Assembly: GCF_004363305.1 (NCBI RefSeq)
Contig: NZ_SNZA01000005.1
Coordinates: 62,001-126,000, forward strand
DNA length: 64,000 nt
Direction of reading: 5' to 3'
DNA from: Marinomonas communis
Lineage (GTDB): Bacteria; Pseudomonadota; Gammaproteobacteria; Pseudomonadales; Marinomonadaceae
The notes beneath the pieces are model-generated. The model saw only the letters and a program-made list of their open reading frames with translations, made no database searches and was not told the DNA's origin. The first letter of the stretch is position 1. Each line of letters begins with the position of its first letter. Positions 2,334-15,450 of this stretch are shown here, one piece after another. The translations under genes and the position numbers were made by a program.

Positions 2334-2671
2334 TCTAAGTCTTTGTTACTTTTCTAGATTCTGAGCTACGCTTTATAGTCATGGCTACGTGTGGTCACAT
2401 TGATTTAATGATTTGCCGTTAAAGTTGTATCAAAAGCTGTGTATGCAGATGCAAATCATTTATAGTTCTTAAGTAACGGTGTTGCTTTTTGTAATGTTTG
2501 GCATAAAAGTCAATAAAATTAATGACTTAATTATTGTAAAGTTTCGTTAGTCGAGGATGAAATGAGTGCGTAAAAGTCTTAATCTTGTTATATGAGATTA
2601 TTGTCTTCGCGTCATTTGTTGGCTTTAGGTATGGAGCATAGTGCTCAAGGTTGAACGCTAAGGATTTTTTT
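2334..2671 (+). promoter_or_regulatory. Upstream region of chemotaxis operon with sigma-28-like -35
   Basis: This AT-rich non-coding stretch precedes the long chemotaxis operon and must contain its promoter. The octamer TAAAGTTT at 2537-2544 is an exact match to the FliA (sigma-28) -35 consensus, but the expected GCCGATAA at an 11-base spacing is poorly matched (about 4 of 8). The assignment is therefore tentative. No coding potential or repeat was recognised. A ribosome-binding site AAGGA (2660-2664) lies 7 bases before the ATG at 2672. Confidence 0.3.
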
Positions 2672-3820
2672 ATGCTGAAATTGTCTTTAACACAAGTTTT
2701 TGCTGTGGTTGTAGCGGCAATCCTTGCTACGTCTGGTTATTTTTGGCCTGCGTTTTTCGTTCTTGCCCTGTCAGGGTGCTTATTAGTGTTTCTTGCACGC
2801 CCTAAAGTCAGTTACGCTTCAAATGATGATTCGGATTCATCGCTTAATGTAGACCCCATTGCAGCTGAAAAAAATGAAGCCCAGAAGTTATTTCATGATG
2901 AGCTTGTTCCTATTCTTGGGGTCTGTAATGAAGACCTAGATAATGTATTAACAACACAGAAAAGTGCCATTGAGCTATTGAGCCAGTCTTTCGATGATAC
3001 CCACCGTTTGATCGGCGAGCAGACAGAATGCATTCACGCTCTTATTAACGACAATCATGATGGCTCTCGCTCTTACAGTGAAGTGATGCAGGATTTTGCA
3101 GATCAGACAGCTAAGACCTTAGATCGATTTATTAATACCACCGTCGAGATGTCCGCTGAGTCAATGGATCTTTTAAGTAAGGTGAGTGAGATCCATGAAG
3201 AGATGCCGGTCGTTACTAAAGCCCTAAAAGACATCGATGATATTGCGGAGCAAACCAACTTACTGGCTTTGAACGCTGCAATTGAGGCAGCAAGGGCTGG
3301 GGAAGCAGGGCGAGGCTTTGCAGTAGTTGCCGATGAGGTCAGAACATTATCAAATCGTTCCGCTGGTTTTAGTGTGGCGATTCAAACTCAACTGCAAAAG
3401 ATCCAAAATCAAGTTACGGAATTAACCAAATCGATGGAAAGCTTGGCTGCTCATGATGTGACCTACATCATGGAGTCGAAGCGCAACATGCAAAAAGTTC
3501 TAGCGCATATTGTTGAGAAAGCTGAGAGTGACGCAGAAGTTACTTCAAGGTTAGATGGTTTGGCTGGTTCAATTGAAAATGCAATTTTTGGTGCTACAAG
3601 AGGTCTTCAATTCGACGACATTAACCGTCAGAACGTCGAGTACACAATTGAGACGTTGAATTTCATTTCTGAGCATCTGGAAACGATCAAACATACTTCT
3701 TTTGAAGATTTAGAACATGTACTTAAAGATAGGCTTGAACAGATTAAAGTTCGTAGCCGAGAACGCCATAACCCTGTATCACAGCAGGATGTAGATAGCG
3801 GCGACATTGATTTATTTTAA
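2672..3820 (+). CDS. Short MCP-like membrane protein with CheZ-like DxxxQ motif
   Basis: A 382-residue protein. Two closely spaced N-terminal membrane segments (about residues 5-42) leave almost no periplasmic domain. A cytoplasmic helical region carries the MCP hairpin tip, [22 protein letters not shown] (from about residue 190). About 120 residues later comes LQFDDINRQ, with D316 and Q320 at the same spacing as the catalytic DLTGQ of CheZ. The last eight residues are DSGDIDLF, identical to the end of CheD in this operon. The flanking helices are shorter than and different from those of the two other receptors here. The start at ATG 2672 is preferred to TTG 2651 because of AAGGA at a good distance. 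It may be an adaptor or phosphatase rather than a sensory receptor; that is inferred. Confidence 0.75.
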
Positions 3821-4128: not shown

Positions 4129-5793
4129 ATGCCGCAAGAGAATAAGGTTTTAATTCTTGAAGATGATACCAGTACCCGCTTAATCGTTTCTAAATCCCTT
4201 GCAGCACAAGGGATTGAAACCGTTATAGTTGGCACATTAGCAGAAGCTGAGGCAGAAGTTGAAAAACATAGCATTGCCTTGTTCTTATTAGATGTGCACT
4301 TGCCAGATGGTGATTCAACGGAACTTGTCCGTAAGCTAAGGATTAGTCACCCTTTGGTACCCGTGTTGGTGATGACCGGGGATTATGAGCAAAATCGAGT
4401 ATCTGAGTTTTTTGATCTTGGTGTTCGTGACTTTATACGTAAACCTGTTCATCCCATCCTTCTGGCTAGCCGAGTAAGAAGCTTTATACGAAATTATGCG
4501 ACGGAGCGTGCCCTTTTCGAAGCCAATGAGATGTATCAACGCATTGCGCATGAAAAGGAGCAAGAAGAAGAGCTCGCGCATTATGTTTATAACCACATTC
4601 TGGATGTGCATACTTCAAAGATAGATGGGCTGGACGTTGCGATTCGCTCTTCAGGGCGTTTTTGTGGAGACATGATTCTTTCTGCTAAAGCCCCCAATGG
4701 GAATCTAGTTGTGATGCTGGCAGATGCCACAGGTCATGGTATGGCTGCAGCGTTAACCATCTATCCGATGGCTTCAACATTTTCCGCTATGGTATCGAAA
4801 GGGCTATCGTTAGGTGCAATCCTTAAAGAATTAAGTACTAAACATAACCAATGTATTCCGCAAAACCGTTTTGTCGCTGCTATTTTAATTGAGCTATCAC
4901 CAGCAGAAAACTCTATAAGAGTATGGAACGGAGGCATGCCTTCGTTATTGATGTTTGGCAATGACGGTGAGTTTACGAAGGTAAGCTCGAAAAATTTAGC
5001 GATTGGTATTCTTCCTGATGAGCTTATCAGTACCAAAATGGAAGTTTTTGAGCTAGATAAAGTCCGCAAGATGGCAATGTTTAGTGATGGCTTAATTGAG
5101 AATAAAGCCATTGGAGGGCGGAATATTTCATTTGATGAGGCTTACGATATTATTGCTACTCATCTGGATGACCTTCAAGACCTACTAGGCAAAATGCATG
5201 ACTGCGAACAGTTTGTGAATGAGCTCAATGATCATGATGATATGACACTAGCTGTATTGGATCTTGAGCGCTTAAAAGAAGAACTAAAACAGGTTGAGCA
5301 AGAAGAAGATGTGCTTCCAGGGTCATTTGAGTTTGACTTTGTTTTGACAGGAGCCTCGTTGAATAACGATAAATTCGTGTTTGGTTTATCTGAACTTCTG
5401 GCGTCATATGGCTTTAACAAAGAATTCTGTCAAAAAGTATTCACTGTTGTCACCGAGTTGCTAGTGAATGCTGTAGATCATGGGATTTTTAATATCCCGT
5501 CTAACCTAAAAGAAGAAGATTTTATTGCTTACCTTTCGATGAGGGAAGAAAAGCAATCGACCATAGCCGCGTCGGATAAAGTCTCAATCCAAGTGAAGTG
5601 GCAAGAGCCAACGCAAACGCTGGAAATATTTTTATCCGACAGTGGTAATGGCTATGAGTTAAACAGTATAAATAATGATAACGAATTAGATGATCTAGCT
5701 TATGGGCGTGGTCTTAAGTTAATTACGTCTTTGAGTCATTCGTTTGATTATGATGAACACACCAATACGACCCATGTGACTTTAGAATATTAG
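4129..5793 (+). CDS. REC-PP2C-HATPase response regulator (HsbR-like switch protein)
   Basis: A 554-residue three-domain protein. An N-terminal receiver domain (about 5-120) has the acidic pair EDD and phospho-acceptor D55 in LLDVHLPDG. A SpoIIE-type PP2C phosphatase (about 165-380) shows GDM near its start, LADATGHGM and MFSDGLIE. A C-terminal RsbW-like HATPase_c domain (about 410-554) has an N-box TELLVNAVDHG, then DSGNG and GRGLKLI. The protein should therefore both phosphorylate and dephosphorylate the adjacent STAS protein under control of receiver phosphorylation. The most likely phosphodonor is the CheA encoded two genes downstream. P. aeruginosa HsbR has the same architecture. Confidence 0.88.
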   Translation: MPQENKVLILEDDTSTRLIVSKSLAAQGIETVIVGTLAEAEAEVEKHSIALFLLDVHLPDGDSTELVRKLRISHPLVPVLVMTGDYEQNRVSEFFDLGVRDFIRKPVHPILLASRVRSFIRNYATERALFEANEMYQRIAHEKEQEEELAHYVYNHILDVHTSKIDGLDVAIRSSGRFCGDMILSAKAPNGNLVVMLADATGHGMAAALTIYPMASTFSAMVSKGLSLGAILKELSTKHNQCIPQNRFVAAILIELSPAENSIRVWNGGMPSLLMFGNDGEFTKVSSKNLAIGILPDELISTKMEVFELDKVRKMAMFSDGLIENKAIGGRNISFDEAYDIIATHLDDLQDLLGKMHDCEQFVNELNDHDDMTLAVLDLERLKEELKQVEQEEDVLPGSFEFDFVLTGASLNNDKFVFGLSELLASYGFNKEFCQKVFTVVTELLVNAVDHGIFNIPSNLKEEDFIAYLSMREEKQSTIAASDKVSIQVKWQEPTQTLEIFLSDSGNGYELNSINNDNELDDLAYGRGLKLITSLSHSFDYDEHTNTTHVTLEY

Positions 5794-5801
5794 AGGATTT
5801 T

Positions 5802-6167
5802 ATGAGCAAGAAACTGCTTATTGTTGATGATTCACCGTCAGTACGCCAAATGGTTGAGATGACTTTAAAAGGGGCTGGGTATTCCGTTAAGGCTGCAAAG
5901 GATGGTCAAGAGGCTTTGAATTTCTGTAAAGCAGAGCGCTACGACTTTGTCCTAACGGATCAAAATATGCCTAATATGGATGGTATTACGCTGATTAAAT
6001 CTCTAAGAGCGATGCCTTCTTACGCGCGAACGCCTTTGATCGTATTAACGACAGAAGCTAGCGATATGATGAAGCAAAAAGGCAAAGCGGCCGGTGCTAC
6101 TGGATGGATGGTAAAACCGTTTGACCCGAAAAAACTGCTCGAAGTGGTTTCGAAAGTACTACGTTAA
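5802..6167 (+). CDS. cheY: Chemotaxis response regulator CheY
   Basis: A 121-residue single receiver domain. Acidic residues D9/D10 lie in IVDDSPSVRQ, the phospho-acceptor D53 in LTDQNMPNMDG, a conserved threonine in LTTEASD, and the lysine in WMVKPFDP. The length is that of free-standing CheY. It lies 8 bases after the REC-PP2C-HATPase gene and just before cheA, matching the cheY2-cheA2 order of the Pseudomonas che2 cluster. It probably takes phosphate from the CheA encoded next. Whether it acts on the flagellar motor or as a phosphate sink is not visible. Confidence 0.92.
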   Translation: MSKKLLIVDDSPSVRQMVEMTLKGAGYSVKAAKDGQEALNFCKAERYDFVLTDQNMPNMDGITLIKSLRAMPSYARTPLIVLTTEASDMMKQKGKAAGATGWMVKPFDPKKLLEVVSKVLR

Positions 6168-6202: not shown

Positions 6203-8419
6203 ATGGATAACCTAAGTCAGTTTAATGAAGCGTTCTTCGAAGAAGCTCAGGAGCATCTCGAAACGATGGAAACCATGTTGTTGGATTACGACGTGGACTA
6301 TCCTGATATAGAAGATCTGAACAGTGTGTTCCGTGCAGCCCATTCCATTAAAGGTGGTAGTGCTATCTTTGGCTTTACCGCAATGACTGGGCTGACGCAT
6401 GTCATGGAAAACATGCTGGACAGAGCGAGGAATGAAGAGCTATCGCTGACCAATGAGTTGATCACGGTTTTACTGGAAACCGTTGATGTGTTGAAGGATA
6501 TCTTGCACAGCTATCGTAACGATGAAGAGATCGACTGGGATGTAGTTGAAACAAACAAAGCGATATTAGAAAAAGAACTTGATCTCGCAATGAGTGGTCA
6601 AGCAGGAAACGATCAGGCTGAATTAGATTCAGATGTTCAACAGGCAGAGTCGGGCGGTAAAGAAGCTTCAGAAGCAGATGAAGGTTTCGGCTTTTTTGAC
6701 CAATCATATGATAGCGATGACGAGGATGGTTTTGGCTTCTTTGATGAAGACATAAGTGTCTCCGCATCAATTCACTCAGACGAGGACGATCAAGGATTTG
6801 GCTTTTTTGATGAGACTTTAGACTCATCCCCCGATGACAGTAATGACGGCTTTGGCTTTTTCGACGATGCACCGGCAGCACCGACGAAGGAGAAAAAAGC
6901 AGACGACGATGAAATAGAAGGTTTTGGTTTCTTTGAATCCGAGTCTGATGACGTCAATGATGGAGATGTTGCTTCCAAAGATTCTGACAGCAGTGCAGCA
7001 AAGAATCCTTCAGATGCTGGTGCTAAAGATGATGGCTTTGGTTTCTTCGATGAGTCGATGAAAGCTCGGCATGAGCAGGATAAGATCGACGACAAACAAG
7101 GCTATGGTCTTTATCCCAAAGAAAAAAATGAGCCTTCCAGTAAAGTAGCGACTGCACCCAGAACAACTAAGACTAAGCCAGCCACAAAACCAGCAGAAAC
7201 GAAAAGCTCTGAAGCCACTAGTATACGAGTTGAAACCGTTAAGATTGATAAATTAGTGAATCTTGTCGGTGAGCTCGTGATCACTCAGTCCATGTTAAAT
7301 TTGATCGGCAACGAAGTTCAGGAAAGTGTTGCTGAAAAAATGATGGGAGCTTTAGCTGAACTTGAGCGCAATACTCGAGAGATCCAAGAAGCAGTCATGT
7401 CAGTTCGAATGCTTCCTATATCATTTGTGTTCAACCGATTCCCTAGGTTGGTTCGAGACCTCTCAGTCAAAATGGAAAAGCAAATTGAGTTGGTGATTGA
7501 AGGTGCTAGTACTGAGATTGACAAAAACTTAGTCGAGAAAATCTCGGACCCGTTGACTCATCTTATTCGAAACAGTGTCGATCACGGCATCGAAAAGCCG
7601 GATGTACGCAAGGCCGCAGGTAAACTAGAAAAAGGAACAGTACGCCTATCTGCATTGCAGAAAGGTGGCGAAATCGTCATTTCAATATTAGATGATGGAG
7701 CAGGGCTGAATCGGGAACGAATTGTTGCGAAAGCCGAAGAAAAAGGCATCGAGCTTCCAGATCCACTAACTGATGAGGCGGTTTGGCAGTTGATTTTTGC
7801 ACCAGGCTTTTCAACAGCTGCAGAGGTTACCGATGTGTCTGGTCGTGGAGTTGGCATGGATGTGGTTCGTCGTAATATCGAGTCTCTTGGCGGTCGTGTT
7901 GAGATTAATTCTTCTGAAGGTGCGGGCACAGAGTTTGTCATTAGCTTACCTTTGACGCTGGCGATTCTAGATGGGATGTGTGTTGAAGCTGAACAGCAAA
8001 TATTTGTTGTTCCTTTGGTGAATATTGTGGAAAGCATTCAGCCGATGCCAGAACAAATTCGAGTTATCAAAGGCAGCAAGATTTTGTGGGCTCGCGAGGA
8101 GTATTGGCCTTTGGTTGATATTGGCCGTGTGCTTGGCGGTCGTGCGGAAAGCATCGATCAACTGGATTTATCTGAATCCATCATTGTGTTGGTTGAAACT
8201 GCCAAGAGCCGCTTTGGCCTTGTGGTCGATACTTTGGTTGGGCAACAACAAGTGGTTATTAAGAGTTTAGAGCGCCATTACCGTCGTGTAGATGGTGTTG
8301 CAGGGGCCACCATCATGGGTGACGGTGGCGTCGCACTTATTCTGGATGTCGATTCATTGATACAGTTTATTAGTTCAGATTTGGGAGGGGCATCTTATGC
8401 CGTCAGAGCAGCAGGGTAG
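6203..8419 (+). CDS. cheA: Chemotaxis histidine kinase CheA with GFGFF-repeat linker
   Basis: A 738-residue kinase. The P1 phosphotransfer domain (1 to about 125) has H47 in AAHSIKGGS. The P3 dimerisation domain lies near 345-405, the P4 ATPase near 410-590 (HLIRNSVDHGIE, DDGAG, GRGVGMDVV), and the P5 CheW-like domain is C-terminal. No canonical P2 CheY-binding domain is recognisable. In its place, residues 140-345 form an acidic low-complexity linker with the pentapeptide GFGFF at 161, 176, 198, 216, 240 and 278, and GYGLY at 300, mostly followed by Asp or Glu. The motifs may dock CheY, CheR or CheB; this is inference. The end overlaps cheW by 23 bases, so translation is probably coupled. 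Confidence 0.93.
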   Translation: MDNLSQFNEAFFEEAQEHLETMETMLLDYDVDYPDIEDLNSVFRAAHSIKGGSAIFGFTAMTGLTHVMENMLDRARNEELSLTNELITVLLETVDVLKDILHSYRNDEEIDWDVVETNKAILEKELDLAMSGQAGNDQAELDSDVQQAESGGKEASEADEGFGFFDQSYDSDDEDGFGFFDEDISVSASIHSDEDDQGFGFFDETLDSSPDDSNDGFGFFDDAPAAPTKEKKADDDEIEGFGFFESESDDVNDGDVASKDSDSSAAKNPSDAGAKDDGFGFFDESMKARHEQDKIDDKQGYGLYPKEKNEPSSKVATAPRTTKTKPATKPAETKSSEATSIRVETVKIDKLVNLVGELVITQSMLNLIGNEVQESVAEKMMGALAELERNTREIQEAVMSVRMLPISFVFNRFPRLVRDLSVKMEKQIELVIEGASTEIDKNLVEKISDPLTHLIRNSVDHGIEKPDVRKAAGKLEKGTVRLSALQKGGEIVISILDDGAGLNRERIVAKAEEKGIELPDPLTDEAVWQLIFAPGFSTAAEVTDVSGRGVGMDVVRRNIESLGGRVEINSSEGAGTEFVISLPLTLAILDGMCVEAEQQIFVVPLVNIVESIQPMPEQIRVIKGSKILWAREEYWPLVDIGRVLGGRAESIDQLDLSESIIVLVETAKSRFGLVVDTLVGQQQVVIKSLERHYRRVDGVAGATIMGDGGVALILDVDSLIQFISSDLGGASYAVRAAG
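6683..7114 (+). repeat. Seven-copy GFGFF/GYGLY motif array inside cheA
   Basis: Coding repeats begin at 6683, 6728, 6794, 6848, 6920, 7034 and 7100. Six encode GFGFF followed by D or E, and the last encodes GYGLY. Spacing is irregular (15 to 38 residues). Codons differ between copies (GGT/GGC/GGA, TTT/TTC), so this is a peptide-level repeat kept by selection and not a recent DNA duplication. Confidence 0.85.
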
Positions 8420-8879
8420 TGCTTCAACAATGCCAACAAGAGAGTTTTTAACATTTGTTCTAGGCGATGAAACATATGCTCTAGACATTATGACCGTTAA
8501 AGAAATTCGCGGTTATGAAGCAACGACGAAAATTGCTAACGCTCCTGAGTTTATAAAAGGGGTGATAAACCTTCGTGGTGATATTGTTCCGATTATTGAT
8601 CTACGTATTAAATTTGGAATTGGAGAGCCCACTTACAATGAGTGGACCATTGTCATCATGTTGAATATCCACGAGCGCATCGTAGGGATCGTGGTAGATG
8701 GTGTTTCGGATGTGATGAATCTCGAAGATGAAGAAGTAAAACCAGCCCCAGAGTTTGGTGTTGCGTTTGATAGTAAATATTTACATGGCTTAGCGACACT
8801 TGAAGATCACATGGTCATCATCGTGGATATCGAGGCGCTTATCTCCAGTGATGAATTAGGATTGTTTGAAACTGCCTAG
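8397..8879 (+). CDS. cheW: Chemotaxis adaptor CheW
   Basis: A 160-residue CheW-domain protein linking CheA to receptors. It shows the family pattern FVLGDETYALDIMTVKEI, then IKGVINLRGDIVPIIDLR and a C-terminal IVDIEAL segment. The start ATG lies inside the end of cheA. A strong ribosome-binding site, GGGAGGGG, sits 6 bases upstream within the cheA reading frame, which makes the 23-base overlap real. The gene follows cheA and precedes two receptor genes, as expected for a self-contained signalling array. Confidence 0.94.
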   Translation: MPSEQQGSASTMPTREFLTFVLGDETYALDIMTVKEIRGYEATTKIANAPEFIKGVINLRGDIVPIIDLRIKFGIGEPTYNEWTIVIMLNIHERIVGIVVDGVSDVMNLEDEEVKPAPEFGVAFDSKYLHGLATLEDHMVIIVDIEALISSDELGLFETA

Positions 8880-8977
8880 TCAGCAACAGATGTTGCAACT
8901 TGGTATTTATCACCATCAACCCTTGCTATGCAAAACGTTGTGGTGTCATACAAACTTAGGTAGGAAGGTTGAATATT

Positions 8978-10867
8978 ATGTTTAAAGGCTTATTTGCAAA
9001 ACCACTAGAAGATGGACAAGTAATCGTTTCTCAGCAAGAGTTGACTAATTTGCGTGGTCAAATTGAGGCGCTTTCAAAGTCACAGGCGGTTATCGAATTT
9101 GATTTGAAGGGTAACATCCTTTTTGCTAATGATAACTTCTTGAATGCAGTGGGTTATCCATTAGATGAAATTGTAGGTAAGCATCATTCTATTTTTGTTG
9201 ATGACACCATTCGTAACAGTAATGAGTACCGCGAGTTCTGGATGAAACTAGCGCGCGGTGAGTTTCAGGCGGGTGAGTACCCACGGATTACTAAACAAGG
9301 TAAGCGAATTTGGATAGAAGCTAGCTATAATCCTATTTTTGATGAAAATGGAAAGCCTTTCAAAGTTGTAAAATTTGCCTCTGATATTACCGCCAAGAAA
9401 AACCAGTCTGCTGATTATGCGAGTCAATTAGACGCGATTTCTAACGCACAGGCTGTTATCTCCTTTAATCTAGAAGGGGTTATTTATGATGCCAACAGTA
9501 ATTTCTTGAACGCCCTAGGTTATTCGATTGATGAGGTTCGAGGTAAGCACCATAGCATGTTTGTGGATGCCGATTTTAGACAGTCTGAAGAGTATCGTGA
9601 TTTCTGGCGCAGATTGAAATCAGGTGATCATTTTGTTGGTCGCTTCCCTCGCGTAAGAAAAGACGGAAAAACAATTTGGATTCAAGCCAACTACAGTCCG
9701 ATTCGTGACGCCCTTGGTAATATCTACAAAGTGGTTAAATACGCTACTGATATCACTGCACAAGTAGAAGCTGAGCAACAATTGCAGCTTGCTGTTGAGC
9801 AAGTTAATGAAGCCATTGAAGCCGCAACGGCGAACGACTTAACTAAGCGAGTATCTTTAGACGGTAAAACAGGCTCTCTACTTGGCTTATGCCAAGGCGT
9901 TAACGGTCTGTTGGTAACCATGACGGATGTCATCACACAAATCAAAGGTGCCTCGGATGCGGTTTATGTCGGTGCTCGTGAGATTTCAAATGGTAATACG
10001 GATTTGTCACGTCGTACGGAGCAACAAGCTGCCAACCTTGAAGAAACAGCCTCTAGTATGGAGCAGTTGACCAGTACGGTACGCCAAAACTCTAACAATG
10101 CTAAACAAGCGACGAGTCTAGCTTCCAATGCTGTATCGGTTGCCAGCGATGGTGGTGAGTTGATTGAGCAAGTGGTAGTGACCATGGCTTCGATTAATGA
10201 GTCGTCGCAAAAAATCTCCGATATCATCGGTATGATTGATGGTATCGCTTTCCAAACAAATATCTTAGCTCTGAATGCCGCGGTTGAGGCTGCTCGAGCT
10301 GGGGAGCAGGGACGAGGCTTTGCTGTCGTTGCTTCGGAAGTGCGTACGCTAGCTCAACGCTCGGCTAATGCGGCCAAGGAAATCAAAGACTTAATCTCTG
10401 AATCTGGCGCTAAAATCTCGACTGGTAATGAGCTAGTGAATAAGTCTGGCGAGACCATGAAGGAAATCGTCGAAGCGATTAAGAAAGTAAACAGCATTAT
10501 GAATGACATTTCTTCTGCGTCTTCTGAGCAGGCATCTGGCTTAGATGAGATTGGCAAAGCTGTTTCGCAAATGGATGAGATGACACAACAAAATGCTGCC
10601 CTAGTGGAAGAAGCGGCTGCTGCATCGGAAAGCCTATTGAACCAAGCCGATCAGTTGGCGACCAATATGGGACAATTTGTGATTGATGAGAACAGTTCTC
10701 ACCAGATTTCTGCTCGTCCTGCCTTATCAGCGCCAAAGCGTGCTATTTCAGCACCAGCAAAACCTGCTACGACCGTTAAGAAACCTGCTATTGCCAAAAC
10801 ACCTTCGAAGTCTAAGCCTATTCCAAAGCCAACGGTTCAGGATGATGATGGTTGGGAAGAGTTCTAA
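8978..10867 (+). CDS. Soluble PAS-PAS chemoreceptor ending in GWEEF
   Basis: A 629-residue receptor with no evident membrane segment. Two tandem PAS domains (about 30-150 and 155-275) are clearly duplicated, each with a VGYPLDE/LGYSIDE plus GKHHS pattern. A HAMP-like stretch and an MCP signalling domain follow, with [24 protein letters not shown]. The tail is flexible and Pro/Lys-rich. It ends in GWEEF, which fits the CheR-docking pentapeptide pattern x-[HFYW]-x-x-[HFYW] and is the same peptide as on P. aeruginosa McpB/Aer2. PAS receptors of this Aer-like type often bind FAD or haem and sense redox state or oxygen; the cofactor is not determined here. ATG 8978 is preferred to TTG 8969 because AGGAAGG (8962-8968) is then 9 bases away. 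Confidence 0.9.
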
Positions 10868-12965: not shown

Positions 12966-13763
12966 ATGGACAGAGAGTTTGCATATACCGATGCGGATTT
13001 TAATAAAGTACGCGCAGAATTGCGGGCTTTGGCTGGTATTAACTTGGCAGATAGTAAAATATCTCTGGTATATAGTCGGCTCGCTCCCAGAGTACGAAAA
13101 TTAGGCCTTAATAGTGTTAAAAACTATTTAAGCTATTTAGAAACTCATCCAGATGAGCAAGAACATTTTATTAATGCTCTGACTACCAACCTGACTTCTT
13201 TCTTTCGTGAGCCACATCACTTTGAACTGTTGAAAGAGTTTATTCAGTCTGGGGAGCAATGCGAGCGTATATGGTGTGCGGCATCCAGTACGGGGGAAGA
13301 GCCTTACTCGATAGCTATGACTTTAGTGGAAGCATTTGGACGGTTCGATGTTACCAGCAAAATCGTCGCTTCAGATATTGACAGTAACGTTTTGAATAAA
13401 GCGAGCCAAGGGGTTTACCCAATCGAAAAGGTTGACCCGATCAGCAATAAGAAAAGCTTCTTTCTAAAAGGAAAGGCACACAATCAAGGCAGCGCAAAAG
13501 TAGTGCCTCAGCTCAGGAATTTAATCGAGTTTAGGCAGGTCAATTTGCTTGATAATCAATATCCAGTTCAGGAAGGAATGGATGTGATTTTTTGCCGCAA
13601 TGTGATGATTTATTTTGATAAAGAAACCCAGGTACAGATCCTTGAGAAGTTGCTACAAAAACTTCGTCCAGGCGGACTGTACATCGCGGGTCACTCGGAG
13701 AATTTTAATCACCTTGGTCATTTGATAACACCAGTTGGACGAACTGCTTACAGGAAAGTTTAG
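12966..13763 (+). CDS. cheR: Chemoreceptor methyltransferase CheR
   Basis: A 265-residue SAM-dependent glutamate methyltransferase. It has an N-terminal helical domain (LTTNLTSFFREPHHFE), the SAM-binding segment CAASSTGEEPYSIAMTL, and the family signature DVIFCRNVMIYFDKETQ followed by LRPGGLYIAGHSE. It methylates MCP glutamates. The gene lies directly behind a receptor pair, one of which ends in GWEEF. This suggests a pentapeptide-dependent CheR like P. aeruginosa CheR2. The order receptor-cheR-cheD-cheB is that of che2-type clusters. Confidence 0.94.
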   Translation: MDREFAYTDADFNKVRAELRALAGINLADSKISLVYSRLAPRVRKLGLNSVKNYLSYLETHPDEQEHFINALTTNLTSFFREPHHFELLKEFIQSGEQCERIWCAASSTGEEPYSIAMTLVEAFGRFDVTSKIVASDIDSNVLNKASQGVYPIEKVDPISNKKSFFLKGKAHNQGSAKVVPQLRNLIEFRQVNLLDNQYPVQEGMDVIFCRNVMIYFDKETQVQILEKLLQKLRPGGLYIAGHSENFNHLGHLITPVGRTAYRKV

Positions 13764-13774
13764 TAGGGGGATTT

Positions 13775-14389
13775 ATGGCATTACGAGAAGAAGCTCAAGA
13801 ACATCTTGCGACAAAGCAATATTTTGATCGCCAGTTTGATACGGATGCTATGAAAGTTCTGCCCGGTGAGTACTACGCCACCGCTGATGATATGATGATC
13901 ACAACCTTATTGGGGTCATGTGTTGCAGTTTGTTTGTATGATCCTATCTCTAAGGTGGGTGGGATGAATCACTTCTTATTGCCTGAAGGTGATCCTAATG
14001 ATCTGTTGTCAGCATCTGGTCGCTATGGTGTATACGCCATGGAAATGTTGATCAACCATTTGGTTAAGTTGGGTGGGCGTCGTGATCGATTTAGAGCTAA
14101 GATCTTTGGCGGCGGAGCAGTTATCCGCGGTATGGTACAGAATAATGTAGGCAAAAATAACGCCGAATTCATACAATCTTTTCTGCAGAATGAAGAGATC
14201 CCAGTGGATGCTTCCGATCTGTTAGACATCTACCCAAGACGTGTTAATTTTTTTCCTGTTTCAGGAAAAGCTATGATGAAAAAACTGAAGAATCATTACG
14301 ACAATGAGTTAATTGATAACGAACTACGCTACAAGAAAGCTGTGGTGGAGAGTAGTCAAACTGACTCAGGCGACATTGATCTCTTCTAA
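13775..14389 (+). CDS. cheD: Chemoreceptor glutamine deamidase CheD with DSGDIDLF tail
   Basis: A 204-residue CheD that deamidates receptor glutamines. Catalytic C49 lies in LLGSCVAVCLYD and H66 in GGMNHFLLPEG, followed by the FGGGAVI segment typical of the family. The C-terminal 15 or so residues form a flexible Ser/Thr-rich linker ending in DSGDIDLF. That octapeptide is the same as the last eight residues of the first protein of the operon, although the codons differ. It could be a docking peptide for a shared partner such as CheY. The gene lies 11 bases after cheR. Confidence 0.94.
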   Translation: MALREEAQEHLATKQYFDRQFDTDAMKVLPGEYYATADDMMITTLLGSCVAVCLYDPISKVGGMNHFLLPEGDPNDLLSASGRYGVYAMEMLINHLVKLGGRRDRFRAKIFGGGAVIRGMVQNNVGKNNAEFIQSFLQNEEIPVDASDLLDIYPRRVNFFPVSGKAMMKKLKNHYDNELIDNELRYKKAVVESSQTDSGDIDLF

Positions 14390-14406: not shown

Positions 14407-15450
14407 ATGCGACATCAACCAATTAAAGTTTTAGTGGTCGATGACTCTGAAATAATTCGAAGGTTGTTAACGGAAGTTCTAAATGCAGACCCTGACATAT
14501 CGGTTGTTGGGGCTGCTCAAGATGCCTTTGAAGCCAAAAAACTTGTCAACCAACTATCTCCTGATGTGATCACGTTAGACGTAGAAATGCCGGAAGTAGA
14601 TGGCATTCGCTTTTTAGAAGTTCTTATGAAGGCTCGTCCAACTCCCGTCATCATGATCTCCACTCTGACACGCTCAAAAGCTGATATAACTCTGCGAGCT
14701 CTAGAGCTTGGTGCGGTTGATTATATTGCTAAACCTGTAGTTGATGATTTATCTATGTTCCATCGCTACTCAAGTACTGTCATTAATAAAGTCAAAATGG
14801 CCGCTCGCTCAAGAGTAGGCCACTCTCGCTCACCGATCAGAAGACCAGCTTTACCAGCTTCAAAAGCAAACCGTGTGCTCGCCATTGGTGCTTCTACTGG
14901 TGGTACTGAAGCCATTAATAGTGTTCTGCAACAGCTTCCTGCTCAGAACTTTGCGGTGGTTATGACCCAGCATATGCCTGCGGGGTTTACGACGACATTT
15001 GCGGATCGTTTGGATAGAACGACTGACTTTACTGTCATAGAAGCTCAAGGTGGAGAAAGAATTCGTCCAGGTTATGCATATCTTGCTCCGGGTGGTTTGC
15101 ATATGCGAGTAGTGCGCCGTGGTAACGACTTATTTACAGATGTATTCGATGGGGACAAGGTATGTGGTCATAGGCCTTCGGTCGATGTGCTATTTGACTC
15201 TATTGCATCAGAAGTAGGGAAATTTGCCTTAGCAGCCTTACTAACTGGTATGGGAAAAGATGGAGCTCAAGGATTAAGTAAAATACGCCAAACAGGAGCA
15301 TACACTGTGGCTCAGGATGAACAATCTTGTGTTGTGTATGGTATGCCAAGAGCCGCAGTAGAACTTAATGCGGTGGAGGCTATTGTGCCTTTGGAGGAGA
15401 TAGGCTCCAACTTAGTTGAGCATTTATCTGCTCGGCACAGTTCAAGTTAA
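14407..15450 (+). CDS. cheB: Chemotaxis methylesterase/deamidase CheB
   Basis: A 347-residue two-domain protein. An N-terminal receiver has phospho-acceptor D58 in VITLDVEMPEVDG. After a basic linker, the C-terminal methylesterase has the serine nucleophile in AIGASTGGTEA, the histidine in MTQHMPAGFT and the aspartate in TGMGKDGAQG. It removes methyl groups from receptors when phosphorylated by CheA. It is the last gene of the chemotaxis operon and is followed by a hairpin and an AT-rich gap. Confidence 0.95.
   Translation: MRHQPIKVLVVDDSEIIRRLLTEVLNADPDISVVGAAQDAFEAKKLVNQLSPDVITLDVEMPEVDGIRFLEVLMKARPTPVIMISTLTRSKADITLRALELGAVDYIAKPVVDDLSMFHRYSSTVINKVKMAARSRVGHSRSPIRRPALPASKANRVLAIGASTGGTEAINSVLQQLPAQNFAVVMTQHMPAGFTTTFADRLDRTTDFTVIEAQGGERIRPGYAYLAPGGLHMRVVRRGNDLFTDVFDGDKVCGHRPSVDVLFDSIASEVGKFALAALLTGMGKDGAQGLSKIRQTGAYTVAQDEQSCVVYGMPRAAVELNAVEAIVPLEEIGSNLVEHLSARHSSS

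Follow-up and report, generated by a model that had tools for sequence, protein, structure and literature searches.

In Escherichia coli, the P2 domain of the kinase CheA and peptides of FliM and CheZ bind the α4–β5–α5 face of the response regulator CheY, a face whose region we take to be residues 89–122. The N-terminus of FliM and the C-terminus of CheZ are the known CheY-binding peptides. To our knowledge, the way in which CheAs without P2 capture CheY is not settled in general. According to the consulted sections of PMC10782961, nearly 52% of the surveyed CheA sequences lack P2, and many P2 domains are found only by profile–profile search. For the F7 class of chemosensory systems, the excerpts of PMC7184735 describe stages 1–5, in the course of which the old F7 CheY has disappeared by stage 5 and one of F6 type has been adopted; Pseudomonas aeruginosa and Shewanella oneidensis are named as stage 2, and the C-terminal tail of Aer2-like receptors is called a fundamental feature. 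Such a tail, GWEEF, binds P. aeruginosa CheR2 (KD 0.52 μM) and CheB2 (93 μM), as given in the consulted part of PMC7698151.

Here we report a repeated aromatic motif in the linker between P1 and P3 of an F7 CheA from Marinomonas communis. The CheA motif is tied to one CheY clade and has no counterpart in CheAs read with other CheYs. A repeated linear motif that tracks CheY identity offers a concrete, testable answer to the question of CheY capture for one large group of CheAs. It also hints at a code by which bacteria having several chemosensory systems insulate their pathways, and extends by one step the published F7 history, which includes a CheY exchange on the way to E. coli (PMC7184735, in excerpt). 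We recognised no description of an FGFF motif or of FliM-like repeats in CheA in the open-access literature, subscription journals lying outside the scope, and the sections of PMC7184735 consulted make no mention of the motif array. The LID segment of Vibrio CheA was considered as a precedent and set aside, as the consulted part of PMC5706961 describes ParP binding and no repeats.

The chemosensory cluster and the CheA linker

The window, i.e., the whole stretch of DNA analysed, comprises 64,000 nucleotides (assembly GCF_004363305.1, contig NZ_SNZA01000005.1, positions 62,001–126,000). Its chemosensory genes are arranged in the order McpA-like receptor, phosphatase, CheY, CheA, CheW, Aer2-like receptor, a further receptor, CheR, CheD and CheB, which fits the description of F7 stage 2 systems in the excerpts of PMC7184735. 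The CheA core score, the tethered Aer2-like receptor and the gene order place the window in stage 2 as defined there, the stage assignment here and below being a reading of gene order. The features are as follows.

5802–6167, + strand: CheY, the proposed partner, in the CheY clade of motif-bearing CheAs (Gln adjoining the phospho-aspartate)
6203–8419, + strand: CheA (738 aa), F7 class, P1–P3–P4–P5 without recognisable P2 (open reading frame, Pfam, tree)
6587–7204, + strand: P1–P3 linker, residues 129–334 (27% D+E)
6683–6697, + strand: motif 1, GFGFF(D), in frame in CheA
6728–6742, + strand: motif 2, GFGFF(D), in frame in CheA
6794–6808, + strand: motif 3, GFGFF(D), in frame in CheA
6848–6862, + strand: motif 4, GFGFF(D), then DAPAAP, near the extended FGFFxDAPGAP of other lineages
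6920–6934, + strand: motif 5, GFGFF(E), in frame in CheA
7034–7048, + strand: motif 6, GFGFF(D), in frame in CheA
7100–7114, + strand: motif 7, GYGLY(P), in frame in CheA
8397–8879, + strand: CheW (Pfam)
8969–10867, + strand: PAS-PAS receptor ending in GWEEF, the CheR/CheB tether form (open reading frame, Pfam)
12966–13763, + strand: CheR (Pfam)
13775–14389, + strand: CheD (Pfam)
14407–15450, + strand: CheB (Pfam)

The first-pass annotation had described six GFGFF and one GYGLY in an acidic setting between P1 and P3 of a CheA without P2, with codons varying between copies and a GWEEF-ending receptor two genes downstream. All of this was borne out. The seven motifs are in frame in a linker of 27% Asp plus Glu, and the six GFGFF copies have six different codon spellings; thus the copies are not recent DNA duplicates. 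Pfam (E 0.001) assigned Hpt (residues 9–98), H-kinase_dim (339–401), HATPase_c and CheW domains to the window CheA, but neither a P2 or CheY-binding domain nor SHOCT, and NCBIfam left the linker unnamed. When six Marinomonas linkers were combined into a profile, it likewise matched neither of two profiles of P2 types (hhalign probability 0.03% and 0.11%). AlphaFold2 on the CheY–CheA read-through chain of a relative (L007; 8 rows) gave a mean pLDDT of 49.5 and a pTM of 0.28; in this model, whose confidence is too low to bear on docking either way, the linker has almost no secondary structure and no fold.

All seven motifs fit x-[HFYW]-x-x-[HFYW], as had been claimed. This loose pattern is weakly selective, reaching at least seven copies in 88 of 20,000 linker shuffles. 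The tighter [FYW]G[FLIMVYW][FYW] is observed seven times in the window linker, against a maximum of two among 20,000 shuffles of the 206 residues (none in 19,384, one in 610 and two in 6). It is therefore the tight motif, and not the tether pattern, that stands out. Among the 178 linker residues outside the motifs only one is aromatic. A genome-wide DNA pattern for [FY]G[FL]F[DE], which takes in neither GYGLY nor motifs lacking D/E, gave 23 matches, among which an acidic-linker setting was seen by eye solely for the six in CheA; four others lie in open frames of 269–744 residues in other contexts (L236, L238, L245 and L247). Genome-wide, no second protein was judged to hold a comparable motif that might mark an output of CheY.

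Two further features of the cluster deserve a record. A REC–SpoIIE phosphatase–HATPase protein (4129–5793; Pfam) adjoins it. This protein recalls CrsR, a regulator that belongs to the S. oneidensis che1 locus in the excerpt of PMC9855816, and is a possible output of the F7 system. Moreover, the McpA-like receptor (2651–3820) and CheD (13775–14389) share the C-terminal end SGDIDLF. Tails of this type (loose pattern, last 16 residues) occur in 53 of the 55 loci that encode an McpA-like protein, in 89 of 110 with CheD, and on both proteins in 47 of the 53 loci having the two. The sections of PMC7184735 consulted note the conserved McpA tail and make no mention of its sharing by CheD; the two tails are likely to have a common binding site, as we would predict.

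Distribution of the motif and of P2 among F7 CheAs

Conservation in close relatives had been set as one test of the initial claim. By score, 19 of the 48 genomes searched have an F7 CheA, and the motif is kept in 18/18 Marinomonas F7 CheAs that were read, at 4–7 copies each; the 19th (G004), split by stops, stands outside this count. The window CheA is 76–79% identical to those of four named relatives, all of them Marinomonas species. A search for plasmid-borne relatives matched 182 records, none covering 80% of the query.

The wider sample spanned 194 genomes of the order and 369 of the class, with F7 CheAs assigned by score (in the order sample, at least 371 bits versus at most 336 for the next CheAs listed). 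Taking 140 of 183 listed regions, together with the window and L004–L007, yielded 145 CheAs, of which 139 have a readable linker; the linker count excludes the remaining six, which gave no P1 match. Of the 139 linkers, 36 have the motif, with the core [FY]-G-[FLI]-F-[DE], and the other 103 have none. Three carriers have one copy, two have two, five have three, seven have four, eleven have five, four have six and four have seven, which makes 157 motifs, spaced at a median of 21 residues. The core is followed by D or E in 119 of the 157 and by N in nine. When Gly was not required, it was nevertheless kept in 157 of 159 aromatic-x-hydrophobic-aromatic words of the carrier linkers.

These figures bear on the idea that the aromatic clusters act as stickers without specificity, through which arrays would cohere or condense. 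Aromatic repeats spaced at such intervals in an acidic linker, with a single aromatic residue outside them in the window, are what stickers might look like. Yet the fixed order with its fixed Gly, the acidic residue that commonly follows, the existence of single-copy carriers and the tie to one CheY clade render this explanation very unlikely.

Several lineages outside Marinomonas (L111–L113, L183 and L187) have the longer form FGFFxDAPGAP or close to it. In one of them (L113), the receptor is close to the PDB entry for Aer2 of P. aeruginosa, 3vol_A (E 4.5e-112); hence Pseudomonas-type Che2 CheAs probably bear the motif, and by extension P. aeruginosa itself would be inferred to carry it. Two genomes, G119 (L115/L116) and G578 (L173/L174), encode two F7 CheAs each. 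In G119, three motifs accompany a P2-like segment in one CheA, and the other has just two motifs.

Most motif-free F7 CheAs contain a P2-like segment, of which there are two types. One bears a conserved GN[DE]P word and escaped Pfam in each of four proteins scanned (L117, L204, L200 and L213); the other matches the Pfam CheY-binding domain (E 1e-18 in L121, 1.5e-19 in L135). As the two types resemble each other weakly (hhalign 8.9%) and Pfam is silent, the P2 label for the GN[DE]P type rests on position and on the statement excerpted from PMC10782961 that many P2 domains need profile–profile search. In several stage 1-type F7 CheAs (L219, L227, L234, L171 and others), Arg-rich words such as ERRxxEDRR follow the P2-like segment, possibly as another linear motif.

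Among the 36 carriers, 26 show no P2-like segment, as judged by Pfam in three (the window, L109 and L111), by the profile in the six Marinomonas linkers and by eye in the rest. The other ten keep a diverged one (L114, L116, L176, L179, L180, L181, L183, L187, L189 and L217). The segments of L114/L116 and L179/L181 match the GN[DE]P type at 97% and those of L183/L187/L217 at 83.5% (hhalign), that of L180 matches the Pfam CheY-binding domain below the cut-off (E 0.00019), and those of L176/L189 match neither type well (2% and 10%). Two further CheAs, L131 and L138, have neither P2 nor motif. Thus, P2 is supplemented by the motif in some CheAs and replaced by it in others, and P2 loss alone is no predictor of the motif. 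By gene order, the carriers belong chiefly to stage 2 and the GN[DE]P majority to stage 1, and E. coli-like loci with a downstream CheY are stage 4–5; in the 15 loci where CheY was located downstream, the motif does not occur.

Candidate partners of the motif

The first-pass annotation had read the linker as a partner-docking array that mimics the receptor tether of CheR and CheB. The array part stands: the motif is multi-copy and conserved, and it probably docks a partner, CheY having been among the candidates named. The mimicry part is not supported. A tether is by definition the C-terminal end of a receptor, and the CheA motifs are internal. Both have aromatic residues three apart in acidic surroundings. 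However, position 2 is Trp in all 121 tether-form receptor tails of the loci, with Glu at position 3 in 90 and at position 4 in 104, and Phe at position 5 (one Tyr). In the 157 CheA motifs, by contrast, position 2 is Phe or Tyr (Trp, though allowed, was found 0 times), followed by Gly, and position 4 is F/L/I/V. The suggested co-occurrence with a pentapeptide receptor fared no better, tether tails being present in 32 of 36 motif loci and also in 76 of 103 motif-free loci (lower bounds, some regions stopping at contig ends).

We compared the trees of the possible partners by the fewest motif-state changes that each requires. The CheY tree needs 1 change (128 loci, 34 carriers), CheD 2 (107, 31), CheW 4 (132, 35), and CheR (113, 33), CheB (119, 31) and the CheA core (139, 36) 5 each; eleven of the 139 loci, including carriers L115 and L180, have no CheY found. 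For the 89 loci with all partners, CheY needs 1 change, CheW, CheR, CheD and CheA 3 each, and CheB 4. A FastTree of 117 CheYs, 31 of them from carriers, unites these 31 in a single clade (local support 99). AU tests on 38–45 chosen loci covered CheY, the CheA core, CheB, CheR and CheW. Holding the carriers as one clade is accepted for CheY (p-AU 0.748; the likelihood exceeds that of the free tree by 4.8, and the free search on this 43-row quick tree needed 2 changes, not 1), is rejected for the CheA core (p-AU 0.00148), and gives p-AU 7.65e-5 for CheB, 0.0358 for CheR and 0.054 for CheW. CheR tracks the CheA core (support 100) and CheB is compatible with the CheA-core grouping (p 0.33), which on the CheY tree has a p-AU of 0.114, no firm rejection. 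As the CheY clade arose once, the association amounts to one gain and few losses on the CheA tree rather than many replicates.

The CheA motif thus tracks CheY rather than CheR or CheB, unlike the receptor tether. That CheR or CheB is kept at the kinase by motifs imitating the receptor pentapeptide would agree with the fit of 7/7 to the loose pattern, with the GWEEF receptor encoded nearby and with the affinities of GWEEF for CheR2 and CheB2 excerpted from PMC7698151. Against it stand the residue at position 2, the partner trees and the tails in motif-free loci, by which it was ruled out as the best reading, and also the internal position of the motifs; we regard such imitation as highly improbable. 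Judged by its sequence, the CheA motif is distinct from the tether and clade-restricted. Binding to yet another component, be it CheW, the CheA core itself, CheD or an unlinked protein, draws more from the trees: CheW tracking the motif is not rejected, CheD needs only two changes on its largest set, and aromatic-acidic peptides could dock many folds. Nevertheless, 3–4 changes for CheW, 2–3 for CheD and 3–5 for the CheA core compare with one for CheY, and a single clade of carriers is rejected on the CheA core, which makes a component of this kind unlikely, though worth keeping in mind.

Residue 58 of CheY (E. coli numbering), beside the phospho-aspartate, is Gln in 34/34 carriers and in 0/94 others; a CheY was identified for 18 of the 19 motif-free members of CheA clade A, and in no case does it have Gln58. 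Ten of the 15 most class-specific CheY columns fall within residues 89–122, which make up 34 of 120 columns (hypergeometric p 0.0011; the cut-off of 15 was set post hoc, and the outliers L131 and L226 were left out of the comparison). In mean class divergence, residues 89–122 do not differ significantly from the rest (permutation p 0.085). We also considered electrostatic complementarity at the CheY face and rejected it, the net charge of residues 89–122 being alike between the classes (2.2 versus 2.1).

Taking these results together, we lean towards the view that the CheA linker holds multivalent CheY-docking motifs, an array that takes the place of P2 or adds to it. In the mechanism we propose, the linker would offer several docking sites along one flexible strip to the CheY whose gene lies immediately upstream. 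At each [FY]GFF[DE] motif the receiver domain of CheY would bind, most likely through its α4–β5–α5 face, so that unphosphorylated CheY might be kept near phosphorylated P1, and CheY-P would leave after phosphotransfer. In stage 2 F7 systems the strip would supplement a diverged P2-like segment (10/36) or stand without a visible one (26/36). It resembles P2, the CheY-binding domain (PF07194, PF09078), in its place between P1 and P3 and in the proposed job of concentrating CheY (possibly CheB). P2 is one globular domain, whereas the strip looks disordered and bears one to seven short motifs. The FliM N-terminal and CheZ C-terminal peptides are similar to the CheA motif as short acidic-hydrophobic peptides in disordered segments, but their sequence, DE[IF][DE]ALL, differs from [FY]GFF[DE], and the FliM/CheZ-type core [DE][IF][DE]xLL is absent from the F7 CheA.

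Repeats resembling FliM in a second, F6-type CheA

The same genome encodes an F6-type CheA.

G000:C3, about 422,700–425,200: F6-type CheA (L260), cut at its 3' end

Its P1–P3 linker contains the FliM-N-like repeats SDDEFESLLSALG, TEDEFDALLDQLHG, TEDEFEALLDQLHG and TEDEFEQLLDSLHG, and FliM of this genome starts with MAAQDLLSQDEIDALLHG. A DNA pattern for [DE][DE][FIL][DE][AS]LL has four matches in the whole genome, one in FliM and three in the F6-type CheA, and none in the F7 CheA. Repeats such as TEDEFDALLDQLHG occur three to four times in each of the 12 F6-type CheAs read (L260 and L027–L037 of the genus), and the 11 from L027–L037 have no FGFF motif. Pfam detected no P2 in the four F6-type CheAs scanned (L260, L027, L029 and L033). 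In the same four, SHOCT (PF09851), which resembles these repeats and not the FGFF motif, scored above the cut-off in L027 (27.7 versus 27 bits) and below it in L260, L029 and L033. The F6 repeats could therefore be an oligomerising or other short domain, and this competitor to the FliM parallel slightly lowers our confidence in both the CheY-docking and the two-code readings.

The F6-type CheA may mimic the flagellar switch to hold CheY. As a tentative extension, which we rate below the docking proposal itself, the two CheAs of one cell might use different codes, with FGFF[DE] repeats for the F7 CheY and FliM-mimicking repeats for the F6 CheY; the motif would insulate the pathways, its copy number would tune CheY loading, and short-motif arrays would have replaced or supplemented P2. 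The F6-type repeats are like the F7 motif in lying in several copies within the P1–P3 linker, a parallel that makes CheY-docking motif arrays plausible as a common design.
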